Below, piece after piece: positions 5,967-30,369 of a stretch of 42,385 nt of DNA (the first letter of the stretch is position 1; the number at the start of each line of letters is the position of its first letter). This stretch comes from Daphnia carinata (Eukaryota > Arthropoda > Branchiopoda > Diplostraca > Daphniidae): NCBI RefSeq assembly GCF_022539665.2, contig NW_026712486.1:1-42385 (forward strand), given 5' to 3'. Made by a program: the position numbers and the translations under genes. Below the pieces are notes generated by a model. It ran no database searches. It worked only from the letters and a program-made list of their open reading frames with translations, and was not told the origin of the DNA.

Positions 5967-6119
5967 ATATTGAAACTCACTGTATCACACTATATTCACA
6001 TTGAATACATGTATATTTGATACTGTTTGAATGTAGATCATGAAACTGATTCTATAACACTATATTCACATTGAATACACGTATATTTGATACTGTTTGA
6101 ATGTAGATCATGAAACTGA
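5967..6119. repeat. Left remnant of the 70-bp satellite (about 2.2 monomers)
   Basis: The sequence matches the satellite that fills 30370-42385, starting at atattgaaactcactgtatca and ending at catgaaactga. Monomers are 70 bp. The piece is trapped between the gypsy LTR and the Helitron array, and shows that both elements inserted into the same satellite array. Confidence 0.95.
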
Positions 6120-6149
6120 CTAGTATATGGCGTACCGTCCCAGGATGGT
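6120..6149 (-). repeat. Helitron 3' terminal hairpin and CTAG end, unit 1
   Basis: The stem arms are accgtcc (6134-6140) and ggatggt (6143-6149) around a 2-base loop, with one A-C mismatch relative to the perfect arms in units 2 and 3. Fourteen bases separate the hairpin from the CTAG terminus. It would act as the termination signal of rolling-circle transfer. Confidence 0.85.
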
Positions 6150-6155
6150 AATAGG

Positions 6156-7240
6156 TGAAGTCTAGTATTAAGTGTCTGCTCTCGTTTTCTCCCTGCATGC
6201 AGCTCCCCCCCCTTCTTCCACCCTCGGCTCACGATTTGCCATCCGTCTGCTTTTTCATACTGACTGCAATTTTATTCCAGTCCTTTTAAGTTCGAAAAAT
6301 AAATGTTGAACTCTTGCCGGTGGCAGTTGGAAATTTGTTCAGGTTTTCGAACCTTACTCCAGGTATTTGAATGTCATGCGGTTCCTATTCGACCAATGGT
6401 AAGAGGGACGGAAAAGGAGAAAGCAAAATGTTAAGCCTAGCCAGAGTCAGTTGAAGTTTTTACTTCTTTTCTGTAATAAATTCTTACACAACTTGTTCGT
6501 TGTTATCTGATGATGGGCCAAGAACGAATCGGCAAACGAACGATCAGTCGTCAGTTGGTCAACAACGTTGATTTAGCATTACGCTGATGAAATTGCAAAA
6601 GCTTCTATTTAGAAATCGTACTCATTGAAGTTTAACATGTCCCCTTCTCGTAGGCGAACAATTTCCGAGATCCACTGTAAAATGCCAATTGTGGTCGGGA
6701 GCGTAAACGTTACCTGAAGCAATACTGCAATAATCGAAAATAAAATGAGAATACTGGATGTTGTCACTTGCTCGATTGTGAACCCTGTTAATAGATATGT
6801 TGACAGTCAAGAGCTTGCAGCTAAATGTTTAACTCGTTGACTGTTGATACGCACCTCAAACGTAAGACATCGTTTCTCTAGAAGGCATAATAGTTCCAGA
6901 AGATTTAATTTCTCTGCCGTGTAATTGAAAACAAAGCGTGATTGTAAAATTTTCAGCGAGCACATGAATGTAACGTGTCACTTGTTGATATGAATTTGTA
7001 AGTGAGTTTGCAAATTGAAAATCGCCATTAGTTTTGAAATATAGGCAGTGTCCTATTATGGAACTACAACATCATTGTTAAAATGGAATGGATCTGGAGA
7101 TGCAGCTAATTTTTTTTTTTTTTTTTTAAATTTGTTTTTAATTTATTTTTTATCAATTTCCATTCCATAAGGTACCTGTTCAATAATAAACATTGCAAGC
7201 TTTAAGTCAAATGTGATTTGTTGAGTGCTTCGAAACTGCG
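6156..7240. other. Left (3'-proximal) body of unit 1, no gene seen
   Basis: Nearly identical to 22505-23595 of unit 3. It contains a C run, a long T tract (about 7110-7127) and no supported coding sequence. A 62-codon minus-strand frame (6622-6810) is preserved in unit 3 (22976-23164), but the copies are too similar for this to be evidence of selection. Confidence 0.7.
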
Positions 7241-9900
7241 AGTTAGACATTTCTTTTGGTTGATCAGCAGTCCATCCTCGCGCAGCTTTTCACTTTGAAA
7301 GTTGCGAATGAAAGTATGCTTCAGAAATTTGCAGGATGCAACTCAAACATATGCTTCGTTGGTTCACCTGTAAACAGGAGAAAATTTGTGATCTTCAGAT
7401 TAAGCCACCGTCTTCTTTTTAATCTTAACAACAGTCACATAGAGAATGAAAACAATAACGCATGTTAAAATAGAACTGAAGTGATAAATGCAGATCCCCG
7501 TTGGTTGAGGTTTGAACGTTGAGGTTTGAACGTTGTTGGTTGAGGTTGGTGGAACTTGTTGAATGCTAAAATCTGGACGTTTTCATGAGGCAACTGTTGA
7601 CAAATGAACACAGAAAGCTTTAAATCAAAGGTGATTTGTCTAGTGCTTTGCACCTTTGAGTTTGAAATTTGTTTTCATTAATCATCAGTCTGAACTGGAA
7701 CGGAAATGGAGAGCCCTATCCCATGTACTGGTTTGACAAAGTTGAACGCCGTTGTTTGATTTAGCGGAAGTTGTCAAATGCCAACCTCTCCACGTTTCAG
7801 TGAGGCACCTATTAGCAAATAACCAGAGGTAGCTATAAATAAAATGTCACTTGTTGAGTGCTTGACACCTGTGAATTTGGTATTTCTTTTAGTTGATCAA
7901 CAGTCCGTCCTCGCGTAGCTCTTCACTTCGAAAATTGCAAATGGAGTGTGCCTGTGAAAATTGCAGTATGCAATTCAACGAATTCTTCATCTGTAAACAT
8001 GAGAACGTGTGTGATCTTCAAATTAAAAAAACGATTTTTTGAAAACGTAAACAACAGCCAAACGGTAAACCAAAACCACAAAGTATGTTGAGAAAGAACT
8101 GAAGCGGAAGTGTATATCCTTTACCTGGATGGGTTGGCAAAGTTAAACTCTGTTGATTGAGGATGGTGGAACTCACTGCATGCCAACATCTGCACGTTTC
8201 AGTGAGGCACCTGTTAATAAGTAACTACTGAAAGCTTGAAATGAAACATGACTTTTTGAATTCTTGACACCTGTGAGTTTGTTGTTTCTTGTAGTCGATC
8301 AGCAGTCCATTCTGGCGTAGATCTTCACTTTCAATGTTGCAAATGAACTTGGCCAGTGAAATTTGCAGAATGCAAATCAATGAATGCCTCATCTGTAAAC
8401 GTGAGAAAATTTGTGATCTTCAAAGAAGTCACTATGTCTTTGTGTAAACGCATACAATAGCCAATTGGTAAACAGAAGCACCACAACACTTTAAAATGGA
8501 ACTGATGTGGAAATGCACAGCCCTTTACCTGAAATGTGTCGAAAAAGTTGCACACCATAGGTTGAGAATGGTAGTACTTGTTGAACCTCAATATCTGCCC
8601 GTATCAATGAGGTTTCTAATTACAAATGAACATTGAAAGGCTTACGTAAAACGTGACTAATTGATGCTGCTATCTACCTATGCCGATGATATTTCTTTTA
8701 GTGGACCAGCAATCCATCCTAATATTGCTTTTCCCTCTCGGAGTTGCAAATGAAGCGTGTCTCCTAAATTTGCAGATTGCAATTCAAGGGAATGCTTCAC
8801 CTATAAACGGGAAAATTTGAGGATTTTAGATGAAGCCACTGTCTGTTGGTAAATTAAAACAGCAAAGCAGTGGAAGAAAACATAAACGCACGTTAAAATA
8901 GAACTGAAGGTAAAAATGCTCAGCCCTTTCATCTGGAAGGTGTTGGAAAAGACTGAATTCTGTTGGTTTATTAGGGTATTACTTGTTGATTGCTTAAACG
9001 TGCATGTTTGAATCAGCTACCTGTTGACGAATAAACCCTGAGAGCTTCAAGTCATACGTGACTGGTTTAGTGCTTTGCACCTGTGAGTCTCACGGGTTTG
9101 TTGTAGTTTAGTAGGAGTTTAGTTTAGTTTTGGCACCCTTTTCGCAAGCCCAGACGTCAAGGAAAACCCATAACTGTTATCACCTGGTTAAAAACTGTTA
9201 TTACCTGGTTGTAAACGCGTTCTAAAAAATTGGCTTAAAGAAATCGGTTACCCTGGTCAGTTAACAGCTGAGAATACCGAGCTCTTTCGCCTGGAAGATA
9301 TTGAAAAAGTTGAGCGCAGTTGGTTTAGTGTGGCGGAATTTGTTGAATGCCCGCTTCAATGAGGCACCATGAGGCACAAAAAATCACTGAAAGCTTTCAA
9401 TAAAACTTGACTTGTTTGAAAGTTTAATACCTGTGCGTTTGGCATATCTTTTGATCGGACAACAATCCATCCTTGCGTATTACTTCACTTTCAAAGTTGC
9501 AAATGAAGTGGGCCTGAGAAATGTGCAAAATGCAACTCAAGTAATACTTCACCTGTAATTAGAAAATTTGTGTGATTCACATGAAGCCACACTATCTTTT
9601 TGTGAACGTAAACAGTAGTCTATTGCTTACCATACCATACCAACACCTGTTGAAGGAGAACTGAAATGGAAGTGCAGAGCTCGTTCACCTGAAATGGGTT
9701 GACAAAGTTCAACACTGTTCGTTGAGGAAAGTGGTTCCTTTGGAATGCTTATCTGTGCAGGTTTGAGGTACCTGTTGAAAAATAAATGTTGAATACCTTA
9801 AGCCAAACATGTCTTGTTAAACTTTATGTAAAAGATTACTATCGTGCACCAGTAGTGCTGTACACCTATAAGGTGGCATTGCCTTTTGTTGATCAAATGT
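7240..9900. repeat. Degenerate direct repeats of about 400 bp, unit 1
   Basis: A module recurs whose landmark is gatcagcagtccatcc...cttcactttcaaagttgcaaatgaa. Landmark copies start near 7262, 7895, 8297, 8704 and 9453. The 402 and 407 spacings are single periods; the longer ones reflect partial copies or skipped modules. Other recurring phrases are caatgaggcacctgttgac, cttcacctgtaaac, gagaaaatttgtgatcttcag and ttgaaaaagttgaac. Copies are clearly diverged from each other but each matches its positional partner in unit 3 closely, so the amplification predates the split of the units. No coding function is seen. Confidence 0.85.
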
Positions 9901-10500
9901 GAGTGAAAGAAAATTGTAATCTTCAGGTGATGCCACTGCCGTTCTGGAATGTACGCAACAGTCAATTAGTCAACACAAACATTGACCCATCTAAAAATAA
10001 AACTGAATTAGAAATGCCAAGCCCGTTCAACTGGACAATGTTGAAAAAGTTGAACAACGTTAACTTGAGGGTAATGGAACTTGTTGCAAGCTAATATCTA
10101 CAAATAAGTTATACAAATTTGAATGTAGGATGTTACCTGTTTAAATGAGCAGGGAAAAAAACATTTTCTAGTACAACACATCCAATGGCTGACTTTTGGG
10201 AGAGCTAAGAGACATCAAAAGAAACCACTGGCAACTGAATTATCACCTGTTTAAATGAAAATTATATTGAAACAAACAGAAATGTTGAATTTTGGAAAAA
10301 ATTGTGGTATAAGAAATCGCTTACCATAGTTAAAATAAGACAGCAGGACGTTTTTGTCTACGTCGTTTGGTAGCTGAATTTCGTCTGACGTCAATGTGTC
10401 AATGATGGTGAAAACGGATTGCTAAAATGCGGAATGTGGTGATTGGAAATGACTAAAAAAAGGGAAAACATAAAACGGGAAAAAGCTAGCTTAGCCGTAG
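9900..10500. other. Right-proximal body of unit 1 shared with units 2 and 3
   Basis: The stretch starting at the atgccactgc/gttctggaatgta phrase is shared with 21414-21985 and 29314-29885 with only scattered differences. It contains no supported gene. The conservation across three units marks it as the backbone next to the Helitron 5' end. Confidence 0.75.
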
Positions 10501-10504
10501 GCAG

Positions 10505-10710
10505 GTCGAACCTTTTTCAGGTAGTCGAACCTTTTTTCAGGTAGTCGAACCTTTTTCAGGTAGTCGAACCTTTTTCCAGGTAGAAAAAGAAACACGTGAT
10601 GTCAATACGACCAATAATAAAACGGATGGCAAAAGGGAAGGAAAAGGTTAAGCTTAGCCAAAGGCAGTTTAAACCTTTTTTCAGGTAGTTGAAACTTTTT
10701 CCAGGTAGAA
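10505..10710. repeat. Iteron-like 19-20 bp repeats near the Helitron 5' end, unit 1
   Basis: The phrase gtcgaacctttttcaggta recurs with starts at 10505, 10524, 10544 and 10563 (spacing 19, 20, 19), followed by a second, looser pair near 10670-10710. Each junction contains AGGT-AGTCGA-ACCT, a short inverted pair. The cluster lies about 130-340 bases inside the minus-strand 5' terminus. Confidence 0.85.
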
Positions 10711-10842
10711 AAAAATCAGGTGACTGCACACGAACCAATCACTGCGTGCTCACGCCGTTAGGTTTTTCGGACAAACACACAGACAGATACACAAACAAAC
10801 TCCACCCACAAATAGACCTTTGGCTTTTATAAAGAGAGTAGA

Positions 10843-10871
10843 CTAGTATATGGCGGCCCGTCCCAGGACGG
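10843..10871 (-). repeat. Helitron 3' terminal hairpin and CTAG end, unit 2
   Basis: Perfect 6-bp stem ccgtcc (10858-10863) / ggacgg (10866-10871) with a 2-base loop, followed on the minus strand by gccgccatatactag. The minus-strand base after CTAG is the T of unit 1's TC terminus, giving a direct head-to-tail junction. Confidence 0.9.
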
Positions 10872-11432
10872 TAATAGGTAGAGTCTAGTTTTAAGTATCT
10901 GCCCTATGGTATTGTATATTTCAGCGATTTCTGTCTTCTTATTTGATTTTTGCTACCTATTTTTCGTTTTTCTCTTGTTCATGTACAACAACCGCCTGAT
11001 GAAAATAAAAGAAAGGTTAATCCCAGTAGGAGACACTTGAACCCTTTTCAAATAGTCAAACCTTTTCCCCCATAGTCGAGTGTGACGTAGATTTTCATTC
11101 GTACTGATGGCGGAAGACGATGGAAAGAGGGAAAAAAAGGCTAACCCTAACTGGAGGCAGATTAAGCCGTTTAGCAGGCAGTGGAACCTCTTTCGCAGCT
11201 AGAAAAAAAAATCACTTTTCATCTATTCAATCATGTATAGTGTGCGCCTACCATTTGTTTCGTCAAAGAAAATAAATAGACAATTCACGGTTGAGCGCAC
11301 TTGGGAACTGCCCCCAAGGCCCTGCCCGTGCTCCTTATTTGGTCCGTAAACCGAGGCGGAATTTAGTTCCTCTTTTTTATGTTTGTCGATATCAATGGGT
11401 CGTTGATTTTTTCGTTTTTTGGCGGCTTACTA
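10872..11432. other. RepHel 3' flank, no gene seen
   Basis: Holds two loose relatives of the subterminal motif (gaacccttttcaaatagtcaaacc near 11040 and gtggaacctctttcgcag near 11180), but otherwise nothing recognisable. This is the 3' untranslated side of RepHel. I found no convincing AATAAA on the minus strand here. Confidence 0.5.
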
Positions 11433-14400
11433 CTAAAGAAGAACTTCCTTGTAAACAACGTTTTTGGTGAATACCTTGTTTTTCTCTTCTGCCGTAGAAT
11501 GCGGAAGATTTCTAAGCAGTTTGCCTTGTTTCTCGGTTTCTTCGCACTGAACCTTGACACCTTGTCTTGACGTCGCCCGCGAGAATGCAACGTAAAGCTG
11601 TCCATGGCTAAAAACGGCTTTCGGAAGGTAGATCCCAACTCGGTCGAAGGTCTGTCCCTGCGACTTGTTTATGGTCATGGCAAAAGCCACAAGTACAGGG
11701 AACTGCAACCTCTTGAGTTTGAAGGGCAAGTCAGAGTCGGTGGGAGACATGGACATCCGTGGGAGGAAGACATTGTGCCCTTTGTGTTTCCCGGCCGCGA
11801 TTTCTGCTACAATGAGGTTCTCGCGGAGTGCCTTGAGGATGAGCCTCGTGCCGTTACAAAGTCCCTGTCGCGAGTCAATGTTCTTTAGGAGAATGACGAT
11901 AGCTCCTATTTTCAGTTTGAGTTGGTGCGTAGGTAACCCAGACACGTTGAAGGTGTTTAAAATTTCTGGAGGGTAGTTGGATATTTCTTCTGGGTCCTCT
12001 GAATCGATGGTGTCAATACTTTTGCAGACTTTAAGTGCGCCAGGCATCTCTCCAATAATCTTGTCGTTGATCCTGAGACAATCTTCGTTCTTGGGGCATA
12101 AGATAGCTCGGTTACAAATTTGTTCAGTCACGCCTTCGTTTAAGAGATCCGATGGATTTCCAAATACGTGTTCGATCAAAGTTGTTCGAATGTTGAGAAA
12201 GTCTTGCGGAATTTCGATGAGTTCTGGGTCATTGAGTCGCGGTGTTTGTTGCAAGGATCCGTCTCCGAGTCGAATAAGCCAATCGGCGAAATCTTGACTA
12301 CTGGCTTCGGTGCGCATGTTCTGCACTAATCGAAGCTGTCGGAAAAGATGCCAGGTAGCGTTGTTGATGATGGTCGCTTCCATGACTTTGACTCTGTTTC
12401 CGTGTCTCACAACGGGCAAGCACTGCCTAAAATCCCCACCGAGCAAGAGAACTTTACCACCATAGGGTTCAACACCATTATTCATGACGGTTTGGAAAAG
12501 ATGATTGAGCGCGTCGAGGGCGTGGTTGGTTTTCATGGTAGCTTCGTCCGAAATTATAAGGCTGGCGTTCCTGATCATTTGCGCACTGTAGCTTCCTTCT
12601 TCGATTTTCGACCTTGTCGTCTCTGTTATTGGAGGGTAAATCTTAAATTGAGAATGGTAAGTTGACCCGTCTAGCAACAAAGTCGATGCGATCCCTGTTG
12701 AAGCCACTGCGATGACTTGCTTTCCTTGGCCTTGTAGGACGGTTATGAGGGTGTTGTAGAGAAAAGTCTTTCCCGTTCCTCCAGGACCATCCAGAAAATA
12801 CTGTCGCGGATGTAAGTTGTCGACATCGTTAACGGCAGCCATTATTTGATTAAAGGCAGCGCGTTGCCCGTCGTTGAGTTGAGCCAGCAGCATTTCGCCA
12901 ATCATTCTCTTTTCTGTTCGAGTGTTTTCGTTGTTTTCTTCTATCTGAACATCGATCATTTGGTTTATCAGATAGAAATCAGGAATAGGCAAGGAGAGAT
13001 CTTCCATGGTCTGATTGTGGAGACGTAACTTATCCTGAATCCATTTCAACGTCAAATTCTTGGCCACGTTGACTTCGAGTCCGCTGTTTATGAAGTCTTC
13101 CATCAGATGGGTCAGGTTGGTTTCAAAGAGATGCAGAGCGTCAGAGGGATTGCAGAAGAGGCAAATGTCGACAAAGAGCTGCCTCAGCTGAAGAGGCATT
13201 TGAAATGCTGCCGCTTCTTCCATGGCTCTAGCCCAAGCGATGTCATCTTCCAACAAATTCCAAGCTATTGCTGCAGCTTTGAATGTAGGATGGACAACCT
13301 GGTCAATCGTTCGAAGATCTTCGAAGCTCGTTGGCCCCTTGACGTTGATGAGAAGCAACCGAAGGCAATAACGTTCAACTTGCCGTACGCCAACCGTGTA
13401 TAGGCGACCGATGATCTTCGCCCTTTTCGCCCGACGTTTCCACGAATTGGTTTTCTTGACGAAAACGTAATGGTGGGGTATTTCTCTGTAGAAATATTGA
13501 CGGGCGTCTTCATCGATGCAATTCAACTTGAAGTAAGCAGTCAGGTTGGTATCTCTCGAGGCGGCATTCATGGCGGCTTGCATTTCGTTTCCTGGCTGGA
13601 AAAAGACGGGCTGTTCTCGAGGCAAATGGACGGCCAGGCGATAGATGGCGTGCGAACGGTCAGAAAGTGGAAACTTGAATATTCGCCAACAAGCTTCTGG
13701 GGCGCTGACGTACCGCGTATCAAGATGGGATGTTATTTCGTCCCACTCCACCCTGGGTTTGTCCCCGTCTTCGAGCTGATATGTTCCCACTTTTTGATCT
13801 ATTTTCAGACAGTCATACCCTTTGTAGACGTACTTGAAGATGTACTTGACGCTGACGATGGAAGCGCAATATTCGAGGTTGATGTGGGAATCAAACTTGA
13901 GCAATAACCAAGGGTTGTAGGGAACAACCCATCTGTTGTCCACTGTGAAATCCATCTGTCCTCGTTTCAAGTAATGTACAACTCCTGTATCTCGTCGCCT
14001 ATAAGTAGGATAGCCGTTGTCGTTGACTATGGTCTCTTGGCTGTGTTGCTTTGGGAAAGACTTTGAGCATCGGTCTCCGTCCATGCAAGGGGACTTTTTG
14101 TTGATTAACCCACATGGACCGTGAATCATGTGGGCCATGACGATTTTATACAGTCTCGGATGCGTAGTTCTTTCTGGAATTTCTGCGCTGATAGTTGCAT
14201 CGACATCTTCTGCTGTAGCGGGGGCGTCACGCTTGTCGATCCAAATAAGCATGTGGCAGTGGGGCAATCCTCGCTTTTGAAATTCAACGACGTGTATCCG
14301 TGCAGTTGCAAATCCCAACACCTGGCGCTTTTCAATGTCGTTGACCAACTCAATCATCTTTTGTCGAAATACTCTTGCTACTATATCGGGTCGATCAGAC

Positions 14401-16751
14401 GACGTCAGATGACTGGGAATGTTGGCCGTGATCTCTTTCCACTTGGGGTTGCAGGTGAACGTCAAGAAAAATATGGGTTTGCCAAATTTTCCGCAGATAG
14501 CCATTGCATCTTGGTACGCTTGCTTCATCGCTCTTGGACTACCGATGAAACTCGATGGTAGAACGTGAAATGATCCGACCGTCAAGTTTTCTCGTTCTGC
14601 ACGATTGTTTATGTAGTCCAAGAGACCATCGTATTGAGCCACGTGAAGTTCTGCCTGATGTTCGCGGATGTACTTCACGCGGTTGGCTTCAATTTTGACG
14701 TAAGAATCTACCAACCATTGCTGAGTGAGTGGTCCGCCGGCCAAGACGTTGTTAAAGTAATTCCTAATCGATATCAGAAAGCTGTAAAATTCACACTGCG
14801 TCACCCTCTTCCGTTTTCCTCCGCCACGATTCAATCGCTGTGGATCATTTTCGTCGTTATCAATTTGCTCGTCTGGTTCCGGTTCTGGTTCTTCCACTAA
14901 CGGGTCGTTACCATCAACGGCTTCTAATGGTGGATTTACCATCTGCAGTATTTCGTTGAGCCTTTGGAAATTGAATTCGTCCTCTTCATTCCCATCCAAT
15001 GCTTGCGCTGCTGTTTCCTCTCTTTCGCGACGTGTGGTTCTGCTATAAGGCATGTTAACATGCCATCCGTCGTCCCCGTTAGGAAATAGCAAAGGGTAAG
15101 TCATGGGGTCGCACATGGGTTGTTGTGTGTCTATTTGTATAAATTTTCTCCCCACGACTGGAATAAAGAGATGGCCCCGGATATCCCTTTTCGCTGGCGG
15201 CTCACCGTTAGAGCTTTTGAAAATTACTGCAATCTCGTTTATCATCGGGCTGTTGTAACGTCTTTTGTCGAGATTTTTCCGATCACTGCTGATGATCATA
15301 CCCACTGTTTGATGCGGGAGATTCTCATGTTGGGCTCGGCGGTATTCTTCTTCAAGCACTTGACGCATCATCTTATAAATGGCTGCGTATGGATTCTTTT
15401 CTCGAAGCATTGCGTCCAATTCTTCCATTAAGTTCCTGCAGCACCCTGCATTTGATGAGAAACTGGATCTGAACTCGCTGGCCTGAGCAGCGTCAATGAA
15501 ATAAAGATCGGCGTACTTGGGATTGTTCGTATTAGGACCGACGGTTGTGGTGTTGTGGTACACTTGACCGTGGATTCTGAAACAATAGGGTCCACGCCCT
15601 GTTGGTGATGAAATATTTGCTCCCAACGATGCAAAAGCGTGTGCGCTGTTGTAGCTGCGGATCTTGGTCATGAACGCTTTAGCCTTTGGATGGTCGTTCT
15701 GCAACAGTTTAGCCAGCGGTTGAGGGCACTCCTTTGGAGGTGGAAGAATTACCTTGCCTTTTCCGCAGCATTGAGTAAATTTCTTGTCTGTTGGTTGCTC
15801 ACCCTTGAAATGTATGGCATTACATTCTCCGCACAAAATATCCATATCCCCACACTCATGCAATGGAACGCTCTCTTCAGTAACAAAGATTTTGCAAGCC
15901 GCACGATGAGTTCTCGGTACTCCATCGCGGTTGCGGGCAGCTAACAACTGTTCGCGGAAAGTGCGTTCTTCTTCTGTTTCAAGAGCCATAATCTCTGCAT
16001 GTTCCAATGCGTTTATTGCGCGAAGTAATTCTTCGTCTTCGTCTTGCTCCTCACGGAGTGTTTCCATCCGTATACGACTTTCTTCTCGTCTTTCTTCTGT
16101 CTCGTCTTCTATCTCAACCGCTCTGTAGCTGGCAGTCTGTTCTCTGTTGAATTCCCGCCGTGCCTCAGCCTCTTCATGCGTTTCATCGATGAGATACATT
16201 TGGTGACGCAATCGATCCAGCGTTGCACGTGAAAGTCTCTCTTCTGCTGTACATCGTTCGCGTTGGAGTCGATGTCGCAAGTTATCTTCGATCAATCTTA
16301 TCTTCCTGTCTTCAACAGTTTCAGCCATGCGCAGAGTTTGCTGCCGTTTTGCTTTGTCCTGTAGCCTTGCACGTTTTTCTTCTTCGTTTTCTTCTTCACG
16401 CAGGGATTGCTGTCGCAATGCTTGCTCTCGTAGCCTATCTTGTTGCACTTCTTCTGGTTCATTAGATCGACTCTCTCCTCTTTTTTCAGCCTCAACGTTT
16501 AGTCGTGCTGGCCTTTCTGTTTCGTTTTTCGTTTGACGCAGTCTCTTTCTATTTTCTTCTTCTTCATTTTTGCGGTCCAGATCTTCTTGATTTAAAGTCC
16601 GTTTATTCTCATCACGGAGGTATTTAGCCCTGTTTCTTTTGTCTTCTAAACGCTTTTCCTTGGCCTCTGCAGCTTCTTGAGCTCTTTTTTCTCTTTGTTT
16701 TTTATTTTTTTCCTCCTTTTCAGTATCGGTCAGTTGACGGCGAGGTGGCAT
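11433..16751 (-). CDS. Helitron Rep-helicase (RepHel), apparently intact, 1772 aa
   Basis: Rolling-circle replication initiator fused to a PIF1-family DNA helicase; it would nick, unwind and transfer single-stranded Helitron DNA in the nucleus. The frame extends to a TTG at 16763, but the ATG at 16751 (MPPRRQL) is the sensible start. Numbered from it: about 1-275 is an Arg/Glu-rich coiled coil; a Cys-rich segment follows ([16 protein letters not shown] ... CCGKGK); the Helitron-like N domain carries the HUH motif [12 protein letters not shown] (His-Cys-His about 831-833) and the two-tyrosine motif [12 protein letters not shown] (Tyr about 970 and 974); the helicase has Walker A GPGGTGKT (about 1322-1329), Walker [22 protein letters not shown] and a late INKSQGQTF / YVAFSRATS pair. 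No stop or frameshift interrupts 5.3 kb and all catalytic motifs are present, so it may be active. No endonuclease or OTU domain is seen. Confidence 0.95.
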
Positions 16752-16854
16752 CTCTGTTAGCAAATAATTCGTGGTTCCTTAATAGTTGATGGGAAGGGGC
16801 TTTTGGAGGTCCACACAAACAATAGCAGAAACAGTAACACAAACAATAGCAACA

Positions 16855-17157
16855 ATGATTGGTAAGTAGAACCGTTCAAGACATCGCACCAGATGGTTGC
16901 TCAAAGTGTTATCTGCTAAAACCTTATAAAGTTGCTTGCCAAAACACGTAACACGATCTCTTCAGTGTATTGAAGGACTGTTCTCAAGTGACCAGAATGA
17001 CGGAAATATTTACTTACTTGAATATTCAAGTGCAGATGCTCTTGTTTGCAGCGGGGCGGTTGTATGCGTCACGGAAGAATTTCGATGTGGCAGTATAGAA
17101 GAACTCGACGTCTTTCTAATAAAAGGAAAAAATAAACAAAAAATAAAATTAATGTGA
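16855..17157 (+). CDS. Possible tiny two-exon gene divergent from RepHel (62 aa), unrecognised
   Basis: An ATG at 16855 is followed after seven bases by a strong splice donor (G|GTAAGT at 16862). A 114-bp intron ending at AG 16975 would join it in frame to an open stretch ending TGA at 17157, containing SSADALVCSGAVVCVTEEFRCG. The unspliced alternative is a 73-codon frame from 16936. AATAAA-like sequences lie at its 3' end (about 17118-17145). The start is only 104 bases from the RepHel ATG on the other strand, so a shared divergent promoter is possible. Against it: very short exon 1, a weak pyrimidine tract before the acceptor, and no family I recognise. It could be a fragment of a captured host gene. 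Confidence 0.25.
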
Positions 17158-18830: not shown

Positions 18831-19554
18831 CAATTTTCAAACCCAAATAAATTGCTGCGAATGTGAAATATTAATTTTCGATTGCAAAAAAGCTTTCTGT
18901 TAAAAACTAAAAAAGTGGAGGTGTGTGTTCTAGTGTTTACAGGAACTGTTCCTGAATAGGAACTCTGAAATGGTTTGTAAAGATAGAACACGGCAGTGGT
19001 CTCTTACAATCTCGGAAACACATGTAGTTTTCCCTATTTGTATGACACAGCATTCCATTTACCAATTTCTTGGTTCAATTGCAAGATGTTGGCCAACGTA
19101 CACTGAATGTCACGTCAATTCAACTAATACATAGTATATATACATACAACAAATACAAATACTTACTTTAAATAAAAAAAAAATGATTTTTTTTTGGTTA
19201 TTTGTTGTCAGGGTCGTCCAATGAAGATAACGGAGGAAAAATTGAAAAAAAAAACTTTTCAGAATGTATTTTAGGGATTACTAATTGATGAACCGTTCTC
19301 AGTACGTGCAATCTGTGTTTGCTGATTTCTTGTGTGGCTTATGGCAGTTGGTTTGCTTAACTATGCCATCTTCCGGTCGTTAAATTAGCCACACATTTGT
19401 TTTTCATGCGGTGTGAAATGAAAGCAAGGGACGGCTTTTAGTTGAGCAACTTTACTCGTTGTATTAGGAAGAAAACTGTTACAAACGTTGTCTCTAGCCG
19501 CGTTGTATTTCTTTTTCAATCAAGCACACCAGTAAAAGTTGTCAAAGTGGATTA
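18830..19554. promoter_or_regulatory. Upstream region of the two-exon cargo gene
   Basis: AT-rich, with a TATA-like tagtatatatacata near 19132-19146 and A/T tracts near 19175-19195. About 400 bases separate the TATA-like site from the ATG at 19555, so it is at best a candidate promoter or the site of an upstream non-coding exon. No other feature is seen. Confidence 0.3.
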
Positions 19555-20407
19555 ATGGCGTCAGCATATTCACAAGAGCTAGTTTCTTCAATAGAAAGCA
19601 TGGAGTCAGACGATGATAGTGTAGACCACATTTTGTCGCAAATGCCTCTCGTTGACGAAGAAGTCGTTGTGTCTGTCTTTGAAACGATCATGGAAGAAGA
19701 AGAAGAAGAAGAAGAAAATCAAGTTTCGGTCGCTGCACTGGGGGACGGGAAGAAAAACATAGAGGAAAAAGTAGGCAGAGATAGTGAGCGTGAAGATGAA
19801 AGAAAGATGGAGCAGAGAATCGCAGAGAAAGAAGTAGGTGAAGCCGGTAATGATGGAGATGAAAATAATACAGAAAAGAGAAAAGTAGAGGAAGAAACAG
19901 ATAAACACCATGACGAAGAAGAAGGTAGTATGATCGAAAAGGAATTGTTAGAAAAAAAGAGGAAAATCAATCGTGAAAGCAGGGAAATAGAACAAAAACT
20001 TAGGGAAATCAAGGAGAAGAAAAACATCGAAGAAAAAAGAAAAAAGGAAGCAGCGGCACTGCTGCGATATCGCAAGTATCCAGAGAACCAGGCCATCAGT
20101 TTAATGAAGGAAATGGAGAAGAGATTAGCAGAAGCGAGAACTGCTGCAAAACAGTAAGTATGCATTAAATCATGTTTAATTATCGTGTATATTTGCAGCT
20201 AAAACCTATATTGTTGTATATTAAAATCATATATGAATCGCATGTTCTAAATCAAAATTACCATTGTTTCCTAGGGCTTTCATGCGCGCATCAGCTATGG
20301 AGACGATGGTAGGCTTGGCACGGCAACACGTACATTTGCTCACATGCAGGAGAGTGGCACTCGAACAAATGGATGATAAAATTGAAAAACCTGAAACCAA
20401 ATTGTAA
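19555..20407 (+). CDS. Two-exon cargo gene: acidic coiled-coil protein, 243 aa, unrecognised
   Basis: Exon 1 is 19555-20153, the intron 20154-20274 (GTAAGT ... TTTCCTAG, 121 bp) and exon 2 20275-20407, joining in phase; TAA at 20405-20407 overlaps an AATAAA (20407-20412), with a second at 20454. The predicted protein has a Ser/Asp-rich N-terminus (about 1-45), an uninterrupted Glu run (about 47-54), a Glu/Lys-rich charged middle, a probable coiled coil (about 125-168), then a less charged C-terminus starting LLRYRKYPENQA and continuing into exon 2 (ASAMETMVGLARQH). The consensus donor, in-frame splice and immediate poly(A) signal argue for a real transcribed gene. It is opposite to RepHel and inside the Helitron termini, so it is cargo: a captured host gene or a Helitron accessory gene. 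No enzyme motif or known domain is recognised. Confidence 0.7.
20154..20274 (+). other. Intron of the cargo gene (121 bp)
   Basis: Begins GTAAGTATGC and ends ttgtttcctag, with a pyrimidine-rich acceptor. The exon 1 frame would stop at once if unspliced (TAA at 20155). Splicing after position 20153 and resuming at 20275 keeps an open frame for 43 more codons. Confidence 0.7.
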
Positions 20408-21985
20408 ATAAAGGCGACTTTTCTGTAACGGTAGTTCCTTGTAACAGCAGACTAATAAAACTAAGCGTTTGTGAATTATTTGAAACGGTTTTTTTTTACT
20501 TTGAAATTATAATACTTGCACTATTCCGTCGGTATCTGATTTATGGGCCACAATTGAATTAGTAAACGATCGTTTTCTCACATTGTTCACGGCTAAACAA
20601 AGTTGGGAACCAATTGTGTTTGTGAAATTTGCAGCAAGCATCTGAGTGCAGCTTGTTCTGCATTAGTCACTTTTAGAACACAATTTGCAAATTTCAGAAA
20701 CTGCCAATTCATATTCCAATACAAGCTGCAGCCTGTCACTGTATTGCACCAACATTGTTAAAATGTAACGGAACCAAAGAAGCAGCAGGTTTTTTTAAAG
20801 TATTTTAAGGTTTTTTTTTGTTTTTGCCCTTGCGTCACCGTTTCAATGAGGTACCTATTGACAAATGAACAATGAAAGGTTGAATGATGCTTGTTTTATA
20901 TTACTGGTTGTGGTATTACTGTAATGCTGTCATTGTTATTTGCTGTATGCTTGTCACCTGTAAGTCTGGTATTACACTTTTTGCTCAGCAGTCCTCCTTC
21001 ACGTAGCACTACACTGTGAAAGTTGCAAATAGAGTGTGTTTGAAAAATTTGCAGATTGAAACTCAAGTAATATTTCACCTGTAAATATTAGAAAATTTGT
21101 GTGATTCAGATGAAGCAACACTTTTTGAGAACGTAAACCATAGTCTATTGCTTACCATACCATATCAACACCTGTTGAAGGAGAACTGAAGTGGAAGTGA
21201 AGAGCGGGTGAGGATGGAGGTTCCTGTTGAATGTTTATATGTGGAGGTTTGAGGTACCTGATGAAAAATACATGTTGAATACCTTAAGCAAACATGTTTT
21301 GTTAAACTTAATGTAAAAGATTACTATCGTAGACCAGTAGTGCTGTGCACGTATAAGGTGACATTGCCTTTTGTTGATCAAATGTGAGCGAAAGAAATTT
21401 GTTGACTTCAGATGATGCCACTGCTGTTCTGGAATGTAGGCAATAGTAAATTAGTCAACACAAACATTTACACATCTAAAAATAAAACTGAATTAGAAAT
21501 GCCAAGCCCGTTCAACTGGACAATGTTGAAAAAGTTGAACAACGTTAACTTGAGGGTAATGTAACTTGTTGCAGGCTAATATCTGCAAATGAGTTATATA
21601 AATTTGAATGTAGGATGTTACCTGTTTAATTGTGCAGGAAAAAAAACGTTTTCTATTACAATACATCCAATGGCTGTCTTTTGGGAGAGCTAAGAGACAT
21701 CAAAACAAACTACTGGCAACTGAATTATCACCTGTTCAAATGAAAATTATATTGAAACAAACAGAAATGTTGAATTTTAGGAAAAAATGTGGTATAAGAA
21801 ATCGCTTACCTTAGTTAAAACATGACAGCCGGACGATTTTTTCTACGTCGTTTGGTAGCTGAATTTCGTCTGACGTCAATGTGTCAATGATGGTGGAAAG
21901 GATTGCTAAAATGCGAAATGTGGTGATTGGAAATGACTAATAAAAGGAAAAACATAAAATGGGAAAAGGTTAAGCTGAGCCGTAG
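20408..21985. other. 3' flank of the cargo gene, then the shared Helitron backbone of unit 2
   Basis: After the poly(A) signals, 20560-20830 loosely resembles the pre-repeat segment of unit 3 (the aacattgttaaaatg phrase). From about 20830 it contains one degraded copy of the 400-bp-type module, and from about 21160 it follows the units 1/3 right body closely. No gene is supported. Confidence 0.65.
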
Positions 21986-21989
21986 GCAG

Positions 21990-22345
21990 GTCGAACCTTT
22001 TTTCAGGTAGTCGAACCTTTTTCAGGTAGTCGAACCTTTTTTCAGGTAGTCGAACCTTTTTCCAGGTAGAAAAAAAACACGTGATGTCAATACGACCAAT
22101 GATAAAACGGATGGCAAAAGGAAAGGAAAAGGTTAAGCTTTGCCAAAGGCAGTTTGAACCTTTTTCAGGTAGTCAAACCTTTTAGCAGGTAGTCGAACCT
22201 TTTTCCAGGTAAAAAAAAAGCACGTGATGTCAACACGACCAATGGCGAAACAGATGGCAAAAGGAAAAAACAATATTAAGCTTTGCTAAAGGCAGTTTGA
22301 ACCTTTTACAGGTAGTCGTACCTTTTTCCAGGTATAAAAAAATCA
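21990..22345. repeat. Iteron-like repeats near the Helitron 5' end, unit 2 (three blocks)
   Basis: Four gtcgaacc repeats start at 21990, 22010, 22029 and 22049 (spacing 20, 19, 20). They are followed by two more blocks, each made of an aaggcagtttgaaccttt lead-in, aggtagtcgaaccttt repeats, an A run and a cacgtga core. Unit 1 has one block fewer, so the block itself is copy-number variable. Confidence 0.85.
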
Positions 22346-22469
22346 CGTGACTGCACACGAACCAATGAATGAGTGCGCACGCCGTTAGGTTTTTCGGACA
22401 AACACACAGACAGATACACAAACAAACTCCTCCCACAAATAGACCTTTGGCTTTTATAAAGAGAGTAGA

Positions 22470-22498
22470 CTAGTATATGGCGGCCCGTCCCAGGACGG
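22470..22498 (-). repeat. Helitron 3' terminal hairpin and CTAG end, unit 3
   Basis: Perfect 6-bp stem ccgtcc (22485-22490) / ggacgg (22493-22498), identical to unit 2, with CTAG at 22470-22473. It abuts the minus-strand 5' terminus of unit 2. Confidence 0.9.
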
Positions 22499-22504
22499 TA
22501 ATAG

Positions 22505-23595
22505 GTGAAGTCTAGTATTAAGTGTCTGCTCTCGTTTTCTCCCTGCCTGCAGCTCCCCCCCCCCCTTCTTCCACCCTCGGCTCACGATTTGCCATCCGTC
22601 TGCTTTTTCATACTGACTGCAATTTTATTCCAGTCCTTTTAAGTTCGAAAAATAAATGTTGAACTCTTGCCGGTGGCAGTTGGAAATATTGTTCACGTTT
22701 TCGAACCTTACTCCAGGTATTTGAATGTCATGCGGTTCCTATTCGACCAATGGTAAGAGGTACGGAAAAGAAGAAAGCAAAATGTTAAGCCTAGCCAGAA
22801 TCAGTTGAAGTTTTTACTTCGTTTGTGTTATAAATTCTTACACAACTTGTTCTTTGTTATCTGATGATGGGTCAAGAACGAATCGGCAAACGAACGATCA
22901 GTCGTCAGTTGGACAACAACGTTGATTTAGCATTACGCTGATGAAATTACAAAAGCTTCTGTTTAGAAATCGTACTCATTGAAGTTTAACATGTCCCCTT
23001 CTCGTAGGTGAACAATTTCCGAAATCCACTGTAAATTGCCAATTGTGGTCGGGAGCGTAAACGTTACCTGAAGCAATACTGCAATAATCGAAAATAAAAT
23101 GAGAATACTGGATGTTGTCACTCGCTCGATTGTGAACCCTGTTAAAAGATATGTTGACAGTCAAGAGCTTGCAGCTAAATGTTTAACTCGTTGACTGCTG
23201 ATATGCACCTCAAACGTGACATCGTTTCTCTAGAAGGTATAATAGTTCCAGAAGATTTAATTTCTCTGCCGTGTAATTGAAAACAACGCGTGATTGTAAA
23301 ATTTTCAGCGAGCACATGAATGTAACGTGTCACTTGTTGATATGAATTTGTAAGTGAGTTTGCAAATTTCAGATATTCGCCATTAGTTTTGAAATAAAGG
23401 CAGTCAAGGTGTCCTATTATGGAACTACAACATCATTGTTAAAATGGAATGAATCTGGAGATGCAGCTAGTTTTTTTTTTTAAATTTGTTTTTAATCTAT
23501 TTTTTTAATAAATTTCCATTCAATAAGGTACCTGTTGAATAATAAATATTGCAAGCTTTAAGTCAAATGTGATTTGTTGAGTGCTTCGAATCTTC
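22505..23595. other. Left body of unit 3, no gene seen
   Basis: Counterpart of 6156-7240 in unit 1 with scattered substitutions and small indels (for example a different C-run length and T-tract length). No coding sequence is supported. Confidence 0.7.
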
Positions 23596-26500
23596 GAGTT
23601 TGACATTTCTTTTGGTTGACCAGCAGTCCATCCTCGCACAACTTTTGACTTTGAAAGTTACGAATGAAAGTATGCTTCAGAAATTTGCAGGATGCAACTC
23701 AAACATATGCTTTTCGTTTGCGTTTGTTCATCTGTAAACAGGAGAAAATTTGTGATCTTCAGATTAAGCCACCGTCTTCTTTTTAATCTTAACAACAGTC
23801 AAATAGAGAATGAAAACCATAACGCATGTTAAAATAGAATTGAAGTGATAAATGCAGATCCCCTTCATCTGGGGGACGTTAAAAAATGGAATGCTGTTGG
23901 TTGAGAGTAGCGCACTTGTTGAGTGGCATGCTGTGCATGTTTAAATGAGCTATTTGTTGACATAAGCACTGAAAGCTTTATGTCATATGTGACTGGTTGA
24001 ATGCTTTGTACGTGTGACTTTCAAATTTCTTACAGTTTAGTGGTGGTTTAGCTTAGCTTAGTTTAGGCATCCTTTTGGGCGAGCGCAGAAGTCAAAGAAA
24101 ACTGTTGTCACCTGGTTGAAACGCAGATCCTTATGTGTTGGTTACGTGGCAGTCACACTTGTCACCTGGAAGTTCAACCAATTCTGTACAAATGTAATTG
24201 AGGCCTTCGATGACATGGCATACACAGTTTGCTGAGAAGTGCACTGCAGAATAGAGATCTAGCCGCAGAATGCTATCAGCTGTTCCAGTGAAGAACTTCG
24301 GTGAGAAACAGAAATTCAAAAAATATGTGGTAAAAAACGTTTAATACAACCAGTTAATAGCCATAGTGAAAATGCACAGTGCCTTCGCCAGCAAGGTTTG
24401 AAAATATTGAACGTTGTTGGTTGAGGTTGGTGGAACTTGTTGAATGCTAAAATCTGGACGTTTTAATGAGGCACCTGTTGACAATCAAAGTGATTTGTCT
24501 AGTGCTTTGCACCTTTGAGTTTGACAGTTGTTTTCATTAATCATCAGTCTGAACTGGAACGGAAATGGAGAGCCCTATCCCATGTACTGGTTTGACAAAG
24601 TTGAACGCCGTTGTTTGATTTAGCGGAAGTTGTCAAATGCCAACCTCTCCACGTTTCAGTGAGGCACCTATTAGCAAATAACCACTGGTAGCTATAAATA
24701 AAATGTTACTTGTTGAGTGCTTGACACCTGTGAATTTGGTATTTATTTTAGTTGATCAACAGTCCGTCCTCGCGTAGCTCTTCACTTCGAAAATTGCAAA
24801 TGGAGTGTGCCTGTGAAAATTGCAGTATGCAACTCAACGAATTCTTCATCTGTAAACATGAGAACATGTGTGATCTTCAAATTAAAAAAACGATTTTTTA
24901 AAAACGTAAACAGCCAAACGGTAAACCAAAATCACAAAGTATGTTGAGAAAGAACTGAAGCGGAAGTGTATATCCCTTACCTGGATGGGTTGGTAAAGTT
25001 AAACTCTGTTGATTGAGGATGGTGGAACTCGCTGCATGCCAACATCTGCACGTTTCAATGAGGAACCTGTTAATAAGTAACTACTGAAAGCTTGAAATGA
25101 AACGTGACTTGTTGAATTCTTGGCACCTGTGAGTTTGTTATTTCTTGTAGTCGATCAGCAGTCCATTCTGGCGTAGATCTTCACTTTCAATGTTGCAAAT
25201 GAACTTGGCCAGTGAAATTTGCAGAATGCAAATCAATGAATGCCTCATCTGTAAACGTGAGAAAATTTGCGATCTTCAAAGAAGTCACTATGTCTTTGTG
25301 TAAACGCATACAACAGCCAATTGGTAAACAGAAGCACCACAACACTTTAAAATGGAACTGATGTGGAAATGCAGAGCCCTTTACCTGAAATGTGTCGAAA
25401 AAGTTGCACACCATAGGTTGAGAATGGTAGGACTTGTTGAACCTCAAAATCTGCCCGTATCAATGAGGTTTCTAATTACAAATGAACACTGAAACGCTTA
25501 CGTCAAACGTGACTAATTTAGTGCTGTCTACCTATGCCGATGACATTTCTTTTAGTGGACCAGCAATCCATCCTAACATTGCTTTTCCCTCTCGGAGTTG
25601 CAAATGAAGCGTGTCTCCTAAATTTGGAGATTGCAATTCAAGGAAATGCTTCACCTATAAACGGGAAAATTGGAGGTTTTTAGATGAAGCCACTGTCTGT
25701 TGGTAAATTAAAACAGCAAAGCAGTGGAAGAAAACATAAACGCACGTTAAAATAGATCTGAAGGTAAAAATGCTCAGCCCTTTCATCTGGAAGGTGTTGG
25801 AAAAGACTGAATTCCGTTGGTTTATTAGGGTATTACTTGTTCCATGGTTCTCTTTCACTACTATTTTTGCGAATGCCAATTGAGGGAAACTGTTTAGTGT
25901 TCACCCTCAATGGCCGTCAGTGACTGTCGCTGTGACAGCCAATGCTAAATTCGTTAAACAGTGAATTTTTAGCGTTAGATGTCGCACAAAAATGATCGGT
26001 AAAATGATCGCCTCGATCTCGATCTCCGATCCGATCAAACTCAAAAGATCGGATCGAAGATCGAGATCGGAAAATTGATTGGCGCGGCAAGTCTGCTTCG
26101 ACTCTGCGAGTTTGACATTTCTTTTGGTTGATCAGCAGTCCATCCTCGCGCAGCTTTTCACTTTGAAAGTTGCGAATGAAAGTATGCTTCAGAAATTTGC
26201 AGGATGCAACTCAAACATATGCTTCACTTGTTCACCTATAAACAGGAGAAAATTTGAGATCTTCAGATTAAGCCACCGTCTTCTTTTTAATTTTAACAAC
26301 AGTCAAATAGAGAATGAAAACAATAACGCATGTTAAAATAGAACTGAAGTGATAAATGCAGATCCCTTTCATCTGGGGGACGTTAAAAAACGGAATGCCG
26401 TTGGTTGAGAGTAGCACACTTCTAGAGTGGTATGATGTGCATGTTTAAATGAGCTATTTGTTGACATAAGCACTGAAAGCTTTGTCATATGTGACTGGTT

Positions 26501-29260
26501 GAATGCTTTGCACGTGTGACTTTCAAATTTGTTGCAGTTTAGTGGTGGTTTAGCTTAGCTTAGTTTAGGCATTCTTTTCGGCGAGCGCAGAAGTCAAAGA
26601 AAACTGTTGTCACCTGGTTGAAACGCAGATCCTGATGTGTTGGTTACGTGGCAGTCACAATTGTCACCTGGAAGTTCAAATAATTCTGTACAAATGTAAT
26701 TGAGGCCTTCCATGAAATGGCATACACAGTTGGCTGAGGAGTGCACTGCAGAATAGAGATCTAGCAGCAGAATGCTATCAGCTGTTCCAATGAAGAACTT
26801 CGGTGAGAAACAGAAATTCAAAAATATGTGGTGAAAAACGTTTAACACAACCAGTTAATAGCTATAGTGAAAATGCACAGCACCTTCGCAAGCAAGGTTT
26901 GAAAAAATTGAACGTTGTTGGTTGAGGTCGGTGGAACTTGTTGAATGCTAAAATCTGGACGATTTAATGAGGCACCTGTTGACAAATGAACACAGAAAGC
27001 TTTAAATCAAAGGTGCTTTGTCTAGTGCTTTGCACCTGTGAGTTTGACTTTTTGTTTTCATTAATCACCAGTCTGAACTGGAATGGAAATGGAGGGCCCT
27101 GTCCCATGCACTGGTTTGACAAAGTTGAACGCCGTTGTTTGAGGTGGCGGAAGTTGTCAAATGTCAACCTTTCCACGTTTCAGTGAGGCACCTATTAGCA
27201 AATAACCCCTGGTAGCTATAAATAAAACGTTACTTGTTGAAGGCTTGACACCTGTGACTTTGGTATTTCTTTTAGTTAATCAACAGTCCACTCACGCGTA
27301 GCTCTTCACTTCGAAAATTGCAAATGGAGTGTGCCTGTGAAAATTGCAGTATGCAACTCTACGAATTCTTTATCTGTAAACATGAGAAAATGTATGATCT
27401 TCAAATTAAGAAACGATAATTTTTTGAAAACGTACACAACAGCCAAACGATAAACCAAAACCACAAATTATGTTGAGAAAGAACTAAAGCGGAAGTGTAT
27501 ATCCTTTACCTGGATGGGTTGACAAAGTTAAACTCTGTTGATTGAGGATGGTGAAACTGGCTGCATGCCAACAACTGCACGTTTCAATGAGTCACCTGTT
27601 AATATAAAGTAACTACTGAAAGCTTGAAATGAAACGTGACTTGTTGAATTCTTGACACCTGTGAGTTTGTTATTTCTTGTAGTCGATCAGCAGTCCATTC
27701 TGGCGTAGCTCTTCACATTCAATGTTGCAAATGAACTTGGCCTGTGAAATTTTCAGAATGCAAATCAATGAATGCCTCATCTGTAAACGTGAGAAAATTT
27801 ATGATCTTCAAAGAAGTCACGATGTCTTTGTGTAAACGCATACAACAGCCAATTGGTAAACAGAAGGACCACAATTTTTAAAATGGAACTGATGTGGAAA
27901 TGCAGAGCCCTTTACCTGAAATGTGTCGAAAAAGTTGCACACCATAGGTTGAGAATTGGAGGACTTGTTGAACCTCAATATCTGCCCGTATCAATGAGGT
28001 TTCTAATTACAAATGAACATTGAAAGGCTTACGTCAAGCGTGACTAATTGAGTGCTGTCTACCTATGCCGATGACATTTCTTTTAGTGTACCAGCAATCC
28101 ATCCTAACATTGCTTTTCCCTCTCGGCGTTGCAAATGAAGCGTGTCTGCTAAATTTGCAGATTGCAATTCAAGGGAATGCTTCACCTACGTTTTAACGGG
28201 AAAATTGGAGGTTTTTAGATGAAGCCACTGTCTGTTTGTAAATTTAAACAGCAAAGCAGTGCAAGAAAACATAAACGCACGTTAAAATAGAACTGAAGGA
28301 AAAAATGCTCAGCCCTTTCATCTGGAACGTGTTGAAAAAGACTGAATTCTGTTGGTTTAGGATATTACTTGTTGATTGCTTAAACGTGCATGTTTGAATC
28401 AGCTACCTGTTGACGAATAAACCCTGAGAGCTTCAAGTCATACGTGACTGGTTTAATGCTTTGCACCTGTGAGTCTCACATTTGTTGTAGTTTAGTAGGA
28501 GTTTAGTTTAGTTTTGGCACCCTTTTCGCAAGCCCAGACGTCAAGGAAAACCCATAACTGTTATCACCTGGTTAATAACTGTTATCACCTGGTTAAAAAC
28601 TGTTATTACCTGGTTGTAAACGCGTTCTAAAATATTGGCTTAAAGAAATCGGTAACTCTGGTCAGTTAACAGCTGAGAATACAGAGCTCTTTCGCCTGGA
28701 AGATATTGAAAAAAATGAGCGCAGTTGGTTTAGTGTGGCGGAATTTGTTGAATGCCCGCTTCAATGCGGCACCTGTTGACAAAAAACCACTGAAAGCTTG
28801 TTTGAATGTTTAATACCTGTGCGTTTGGCATATCTTTTTATCAAACAACAATCTATCGTTGCGTATTACTTCACTTTCAAAGTTGCAAATGAAGTGGGCC
28901 TGAGAAATGTGCAAAATGCAACTCAAGTAATACTTCACCTGTAATTAGAAAATTTGTGTGATTCAGATGAAGCCACACTATCTTTTTGTGAACGTAAACA
29001 GTAGTCTATTGCTTACCATACCATACCAGCACCTGTTGAAGGAGAACTGAAGTGGAAGTGCAGAGCTCGTTCACCTGAAATGGGTTGATAAAATTCAACA
29101 GTGTTTGTTGAGGACAGTGGTTCCTTTGGAATGCTTACTGTGCAGGTTTGAGGTACCTGTTGAAAAATAAATGTTTAATACCTTAAGCTAAACATGTCTT
29201 GTTAAACTTTATGTAAAAGATTACTATCGTACACCAGTAGTGCTGTGCACCTATAAGGTG
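23596..29260. repeat. Degenerate direct repeats of about 400 bp, unit 3, with an internal 2.5-kb duplication
   Basis: Landmark modules (gatcagcagtcc-type) start near 23617, 24754, 25153, 25558, 26130, 27278, 27673, 28088 and 28850. Sequence 23596-25840 recurs at 26107-28372 with an offset of 2,512-2,531 bases, a duplication of about five modules. The second copy continues into the shared right body; the first is cut off at 25840 by a unique insert. Confidence 0.85.
25841..26095. other. Unique insert in unit 3 containing a GATC-rich inverted repeat
   Basis: At 25841 unit 3 departs from the sequence shared with unit 1 and with its own second copy, and rejoins at about 26096-26107. Within it, arms 26013-26036 and 26047-26070 are inverted repeats matching at 22 of 24 positions around a 10-base loop, rich in GATC/CGATC. 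The insert could be a small transposon relic or filler DNA made when the 2.5-kb duplication formed. Confidence 0.75.
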
Positions 29261-29313
29261 GCATTGCCTTTTGTTGATCAAATGTGAGTGAAAGAAAATT
29301 GTAATCTTCAGGT

Positions 29314-29885
29314 GATGCCACTGCCGTTCTGGAATGTACGCAACAGTCAATTAGTCAACACAAACATTGACCCATCTAAAAAGTAAACTGAATTAGAAAT
29401 ACCAAGCCCGTTCAACTGGACAATGTTGAAAAAGTTGAACAACGTTAACTTGAGGGTAATGGAACTTGTTGCAAGCTAATATCTGCAAATAAGTTATACA
29501 AATTTGAATGTAGGATGTTACCTGTTTAAATGAGCAGGGAAAAAAACATTTTCTACTACAATACATCCAATGGCTGATTTTTGGGAGAGCTAAGAGACAT
29601 CAAAAGAAACCACTGGCAACTGAATTATCACCTGTTTAAATGAAAATTATATTGAAACAAACAGAAATGTTGAATTTTGGAAGAAATTGTGGTATAAGAA
29701 ATCGCTTACATTGTTAAAATGTGACAGCAGGACGTTTTTGTCTACGTCGTTTGGTAGCTGAATTTCGTCTGACGTTAATGTGTCAATGATGGTGAAAACG
29801 GATTGCTAAAATGCGGAATGTGGTGATTGGAAATGACTAAAAAAAGGGAAAACATAAAACGGGAAAAAGTTACGCTTAGCCGTAG
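29314..29885. other. Right-proximal body of unit 3, shared backbone
   Basis: Close match to 9930-10500 of unit 1 and about 21414-21985 of unit 2. No gene is supported. Confidence 0.7.
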
Positions 29886-29888
29886 GCA

Positions 29889-30245
29889 GGTCGAACCTTT
29901 TTTCAGGTAGTCGAACATTTTTCAGGTAGTCGAACCTTTTTTCAGGTAGTCGGACCTTTTTCCAGGTAGAAAAAAACACGTGATGTCAATGCGACCAATG
30001 ATAAAACGGATGGCAAAAGGGAAGGAAAAGGTTAAGCTTTGCCAAAGGCAGTTTGAACCTTTTTCAGGTAGTCGAACCTTTTAGCAGATAGTCGAACCTT
30101 TTTCGAGGTAAAAAAAAAACCACGTGATGTCAACACGACCAATGGCGAAAAAGATGGCAAAAGGGAAAAAAAATGTTAAGCTTTGCCAAAGGCAGTTTGA
30201 ACCTTTTTCAGGTAGTCGTACCTTTTTCCAGGTATAAAAAAATCA
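29889..30245. repeat. Iteron-like repeats near the Helitron 5' end, unit 3 (three blocks)
   Basis: Same organisation as unit 2: a four-copy gtcgaacctttttcaggta run with single-base changes (gtcgaaca, gtcggacc), then two further blocks with cacgtga cores. The following 100 bases lead to the conserved cttttataaagagagtaga end. Confidence 0.85.
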
Positions 30246-30369
30246 CGTGACTGAACACGAACCAATCACTGCGTGCGCACGCCGTTAGGTTTTTCGGACA
30301 AACACACAGACAGATACACAAACAAACTCCTCCCACAAAGAGACCTTTGGCTTTTATAAAGAGAGTAGA

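Follow-up and report, generated by a model that had tools for sequence, protein, structure and literature searches.

Adjacent Helitrons have already been published for bats, maize, and fungi. In maize, two adjacent, unlike elements were attributed to consecutive insertion, at either a G/T or an A/T target, the side hit being considered not decidable (PMC2267711). Head-to-tail Helitrons in plants and bats have been cited as support for rolling-circle transposition (PMC5876387). For the fungus Metarhizium acridum, three tandem Helitrons are described, alongside cited cases from bat, Drosophila, rice, and maize (PMC5148889). A preference for insertion near other Helitrons has also been cited (PMC12477314). 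As for the reaction itself, Helraiser transposase cuts between the flank and the 5' TC, and inserts the element at A/T (PMC4778049). Of 1,751 Helraiser insertions, 46 were outside AT, with TT, AC, and AA prominent among these (PMC4778049).

The locus described here resembles each of these systems in part. As in the maize pair, CTAG is followed directly by TC, the bodies are unlike, and consecutive insertion has two options. However, maize offers one pair, whereas here there are 15 distinct joints, several families, and a duplicated host site that informs on the side of addition (PMC2267711). The tandem Helitrons of bats (Pritham and Feschotte, cited in PMC2267711) have equally perfect head-to-tail joints. 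Those arrays were read as tandem repeats, whereas neighbours here are mostly from different families. M. acridum also has three tandem units, for which double insertion at the 5' end and a rolling circle were both considered. Those Helitrons are non-canonical and fungal, and the accessible text of the report describes no genome-wide joint analysis; the elements here are canonical and are treated genome-wide (PMC5148889). Helraiser and Helibat1 share with our units a homologous RepHel protein (in U2, residues 649-1775), TC...CTAG ends, an A/T target, and a 3' hairpin (PMC4778049, PMC5876387). For these elements, circles with joined ends are known (PMC4778049, PMC5876387). Helraiser is a 5,296-bp bat consensus, whereas paired ends in the present genome delimit units of 4.7 to 18 kb. 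In the literature searched, most subscription papers being outside that search, we recognised no family-wide analysis of joint partners. What is new here is family-wide data on the side joined by newcomers. With one genome, 15 distinct joints, and several families, the concatemer and consecutive-insertion readings become comparable. If newcomers add at A/TC, head-to-tail arrays alone are no evidence of concatemers, and each array would be an ordered record of transposition.

The window, meaning the whole stretch of DNA analysed, is the entire contig C34 (42,385 bp) of a 108 Mb genome in 106 contigs. From left to right, it holds 77 C and 50 T, a Ty3/Gypsy-like retroelement, 149 bp of satellite, the minus-strand Helitron units U1, U2, and U3, and another 12 kb of satellite. 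The C and T runs, at positions 1-127 of the contig start, probably reflect an artefact of assembling the contig end. The retroelement (738-5521, minus strand) is broken into three ORFs. The features of the array are as follows.

5971 to 6119, no strand: satellite, 3' flank of the array; its minus-strand reading starts with T
6120 to 10842, minus strand: U1, 3'-most unit, a non-autonomous family-A Helitron, 4723 bp
10836 to 10846, minus strand: U2/U1 joint, CTAG/TCTACTC, also present on contig C8
10843 to 22469, minus strand: U2, autonomous Helitron, middle unit, 11627 bp, with both ends and a Rep/helicase frame
10858 to 10871, minus strand: U2 3' hairpin, CCGTC-CTGG-GACGG, read by eye
11433 to 16763, minus strand: Rep/helicase open frame of 1776 aa, with Helitron_like_N and PIF1 matches and HUH, YIFKY, and GGTGKT motifs
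22463 to 22473, minus strand: U3/U2 joint, CTAG/TCTACTC, on C34 alone
22470 to 30369, minus strand: U3, 5'-most unit, a non-autonomous, internally duplicated family-A Helitron, 7900 bp
22485 to 22498, minus strand: U3 3' hairpin, letters as in U2 (CCGTC-CTGG-GACGG), read by eye
30370 to 42385, no strand: 5' flank of the Helitron array, made of 70-bp satellite monomers; its A adjoins the 5' TC

U1, U2, and U3 all start with TCTACTCTCTTTATAAAAGCC and end with GCCATATACTAG. Neighbouring units abut exactly (CTAG/TC) at 22469/22470 and 10842/10843, with zero bases between them. The sequence CTAGTCTACTC has 2 copies in the window, compared with 0 in 100 shuffles. The units have the 5' TC and 3' CTRR ends of canonical Helitrons, and a hairpin shortly before the 3' end. 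The hairpins were picked by eye from the sequence; that of U1 has one mismatch in its stem (CCATC/GACGG). Canonical insertion at A/T, without target duplication, is seen at the outer ends, while the joints themselves are G/T. In U2, a Rep with HUH and two tyrosines and a PIF1-type helicase are combined in one protein, as in canonical Helitrons. Joining the 149 bp left of 6120 to the 141 bp right of 30369 gave 290 bp that aligned to the satellite end to end and without gaps (best 96.9%). This confirms that the three-unit array sits between A and T of the 70-bp-monomer satellite, without target duplication. The preliminary description had recognised Helitrons with common termini and exact abutment, and a single satellite monomer split at A/T that the flanks restore. 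The ends, the joints, the Rep/helicase frame, and the gapless alignment agree with all of this. It had also counted one autonomous and two different non-autonomous units, three body types in all. U2 is indeed autonomous. However, U1 and U3 align at 93.6% over 3218 bp, 94.4% over 1403 bp, and 95.5% over 1462 bp. On these alignments they are one non-autonomous family (A), and three distinct body types are ruled out.

Within U3, the internal duplication has 92.4% identity across a 2296-bp alignment. What U2 has in common with U1 and U3 is mainly the first ~1.3-1.5 kb and the last 63 bp. Neither U1 nor U3 has an ORF of at least 150 aa in the window ORF list. Degenerate repeats, ~400 bp apart, occur in the bodies of U1 (7526-9102) and U3 (24407-28488). 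In the U2 frame, HUH, two-tyrosine, and Walker A motifs are present, and residues 649-1775 match the Helraiser structure (PDB 7lcc). Genome-wide, there are 23 Helitron_like_N matches, three of which lie in open frames of 1779-1781 aa (C9, C63, and the window). Among 120 relatives listed for Rep/helicase residues 600-1100, the closest with a name are Daphnia proteins, from D. magna (69%) and D. pulicaria (67% and 69%), and another relative is at 78%. The host is thus likely to be a water flea or something akin to one. A search of phage proteins found distant helicases alone. On the plus strand, opposite the Rep/helicase within U2, lies a 200-aa glutamate-rich ORF (19555-20157) with no Pfam match.

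Pattern scans of the genome, allowing at most 3 mismatches, gave 42 5' ends and 41 3' ends, and the joint pattern returned 16 exact joints. Reversed patterns gave 0 in each case. Note that scans for ends and joints overlook more diverged ends. The joints occupy 15 distinct loci; the genome has several trains of mixed Helitrons, and the three-unit array is one example, not a unique case. Joints contain 15 of the 38 distinct 3' ends, after subtraction of three same-locus ends, of which C8 has two and C46 one. Between 256 and 310 kb of C9, six consecutive 3' ends each have a 5' end directly after them. Where listed ends are at most 10 bp apart, the arrangement is head-to-tail in 16/16 rows, a set that includes the same-locus rows of C8 and C46 and omits the joint at C9:310328. 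In the latter, a family-A 3' end meets a 5' end from a family (X) that is more distant. Partners were assigned by comparing 1.45 kb on either side. With U denoting U2, the 15 distinct joints are A/U, U/A, B/A (3), A/B (2), B/B (2), U/B, A/D, D/A (2), B/D, and A/X. The two D/A joints lie at the two ends of C9, and may or may not stem from a single event. Hence, like units do not join like units in excess: same-family joints number 2/15, compared with 4.4 expected by shuffling (P(<=2) = 0.13), where family labels were hand-assigned from sequence comparison and different labels would alter all three values. In a rolling-circle concatemer, neighbours are copies of one unit; this applies to 0/2 joints in the window and to 2/15 genome-wide. 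Depending on the locus, what comes after the U2 3' end is U1, a family-B unit, or host satellite (C63 and C97, reading CTAG/T). Similarly, U3-like 3' ends are followed by U2 (window) or B (C52). At C7:910729, outside the set of 15, a 3' end precedes what is, by eye, the apparent 5' terminus of another family. The family-B 3' ends at C33:12689 and C33:23774 lack CTAG/T, and read ACAAA/A and CTAT/A.

The U2-U1 order occurs also on C8 and C46. The joint at C8:1401632 is the window's own: C8 is 99.84% identical over 3184 bp across it, and 100% over 1043 bp of 3' flank. Since joint and flank are shared, C8 and the window are the same locus or duplicates. On C46, the downstream host flank is 99.9% identical over 1004 bp. 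The matching flanks on C8 and C46 indicate that other contigs carry this same locus or a duplicate, and both were excluded from the 15 distinct joints. Spread of U2-U1 as a composite is ruled out by the same flanks. U2 on C8 is interrupted by a run of 100 N, which lies, within C8:1396000-1400150, between satellite and a diverged U2 edge (97.1% over 814 bp). It is possible that the window contig spans the missing stretch.

At the outer 5' ends, the neighbouring base is A in 23/27 cases (3 T, 1 G); at the outer 3' ends, it is T in 24/27 cases with data (2 A, 1 G). Both G neighbours are the C46 joint, and same-locus 3' ends of C8 and C46 are counted among T. Satellite flanks 14/27 outer 5' ends and 12/27 outer 3' ends. 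As a nesting control, outer flanks (at most 400 bp) were compared with Helitrons, and 6/49 matched; the control covered parts of the B and D bodies and of the 18-kb unit's body, so nested insertions could escape it. Two of the six are the C46 joint itself and three others have little length or identity (33 bp, 40 bp, and 72% over 167 bp). The remaining match, at C33:23774, is the interior of a D unit (97% over 104 bp), at the end without CTAG/T noted above.

A duplicated host site on C52, a 59-kb contig, bears on the side of addition. Here, a host repeat is present three times, at 15940, 32119, and 42031, with one copy inverted. The copies are identical across the 401 bp tested, and two match over ~2.45 kb. 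One copy is empty and reads AAGCCAATTA/TATTTATATC. In the second, a U3-like/B pair separates the A of this site from its TATTTATATC, and the next 240 bp are the same by eye. In the third, a U2-like element follows the same A, with 99.3% identity to U2 809-2975, and the match ends at 34968. This element is cut short, and the sequence beyond its break does not match U2, so no downstream partner is readable. Two different 5'-most units at one A/T are as 5'-side addition predicts. Insertion at the 3' side would retain the 5'-most unit; hence, the arrangement counts against it. The same pattern could be mimicked by independent hits at the same A/T of a duplicated repeat, or by conversion of the first unit.

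With same-locus copies set aside, the nearest relative over the last 1.45 kb is 96.8% identical for U1 (1387 bp; best 690 bp 98.3%), 99.9% for U2, and 99.7% for U3. U1 is thus older than U2 and U3, whose own order is not resolvable in the window. The same values leave unsupported the preliminary claim that the units arrived in one insertion, and the array is most likely no single fused insertion. We also compared terminal branches with position in six arrays. At all five tail lengths, the score leaned to older units toward the 3' end, with permutation p of 0.29, 0.25, 0.018, 0.26, and 0.015 (0.023 in a first run). Hence, p was below 0.05 at two of the five. In the C52 pair the 3' unit is younger, contrary to the trend. 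An age order along arrays, older toward the 3' end, is suggestive only and not robust.

Briefly, we observe exact CTAG/TC joints, a clean host A/T, mixed partners, and one orientation. The array is probably a heterotypic train of canonical Helitrons, built up as newcomers inserted one after another at the resident's 5' terminus. U1 would have entered the satellite first. The 5' border of the resident, host A/TC, would then be both a canonical A/T target and the nick site of the Rep nuclease. The 3' CTAG of a newcomer would be joined to the 5' TC of the resident, and the 5' TC of the newcomer to the host A. Each addition would regenerate A/TC, such that the process could repeat, with U2 and then U3. 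The acceptor step, joining of the newcomer at the nicked 5' border, is what we infer. If joining takes place on the resident's nicked strand, joints would be head-to-tail, and, since termini are common to families, partners can mix. Note that A/T is palindromic. Hence, mere preference for the dinucleotide should give head-to-head joints too, and 16/16 head-to-tail favours the model. Addition at the 5' side accounts for the exact joints, single orientation, mixed partners, and open-ended growth. More tentatively, the nicked 5' terminus of a resident may be a strand-specific preferred acceptor, at which related Helitrons with common termini build open-ended mixed trains on the 5' side only.

The preliminary description had offered two mechanisms, read-through past CTAG and repeated insertion at the terminus. 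Genome-wide, the latter is favoured, because partners are mixed, downstream neighbours vary or are absent, orientation is single, and the C52 site is found empty and with two 5'-most units. In read-through, rolling-circle replication passes CTAG and a multimer is inserted in one step, which would give exact, head-to-tail joints; end bypass and CTAG/TC circles are known for Helraiser (PMC5876387, PMC4778049). However, adjoining units are not repeats of a single element, U2 3' ends on C63 and C97 halt at CTAG/T in host satellite, and unit ages in the window array are unequal, making this explanation improbable. Repeated entry of newcomers at the resident's 3' border, with CTAG on one side and the host T on the other, yields identical joint letters and was one of the two options put forward for maize (PMC2267711). 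We consider it unlikely: it requires a G/T target, while the prominent non-AT sites of Helraiser are of other types (PMC4778049), one C52 site has differing 5'-most units, and the oldest unit, U1, is at the 3' end of the window array.

Different elements might instead be joined end to end before insertion, giving a heterodimeric circle or strand, or recombination between shared ends might reshuffle older joints. The common 5' ~1.3 kb and 3' 63 bp would allow this, circles with joined ends are known (PMC5876387), and D/A recurs at two places on C9. Set against these points, unit ages in the window array are unequal, and recombination is unable to create a first joint; we regard such routes as rather unlikely. 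Finally, the assembly could have placed units together because their ends are common. In favour of this, the window is a small contig whose first letters are 77 C and 50 T, U2 on C8 is interrupted by a gap, and C46 shows divergence close to its end. Nevertheless, a misjoin via shared ends would merge units; it would not set the 3' end of one against a different 5' end with base precision. Furthermore, the U2/U1 joint is present on C8 too, and long contigs (C4, C7, and C9) hold 12/16 exact joints. An artefact is therefore very improbable. Successive insertion at the 5' terminus of the resident is the explanation we prefer.

Copies of U2 elsewhere in the genome are closely related. Identity at the 3' end is 99.2-99.9% among the window, C9, C63, and C97, and such near-identical copies suggest recent movement of U2. 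Two copies, at C9:242677 and C97:13609, are without the first 210 and 383 bases and directly abut satellite. Both are 100% identical to the window U2 beside the break, and are either 5'-truncated insertions or products of later deletion. U2-like copies on C52 (34968) and C63 (30585) have the same breakpoint, at U2 2971-2975. The U2 match ends there on C52 and begins there on C63, where ~10 kb of other sequence precedes it. The shared breakpoint is perhaps one insertion with a 5-bp duplication.
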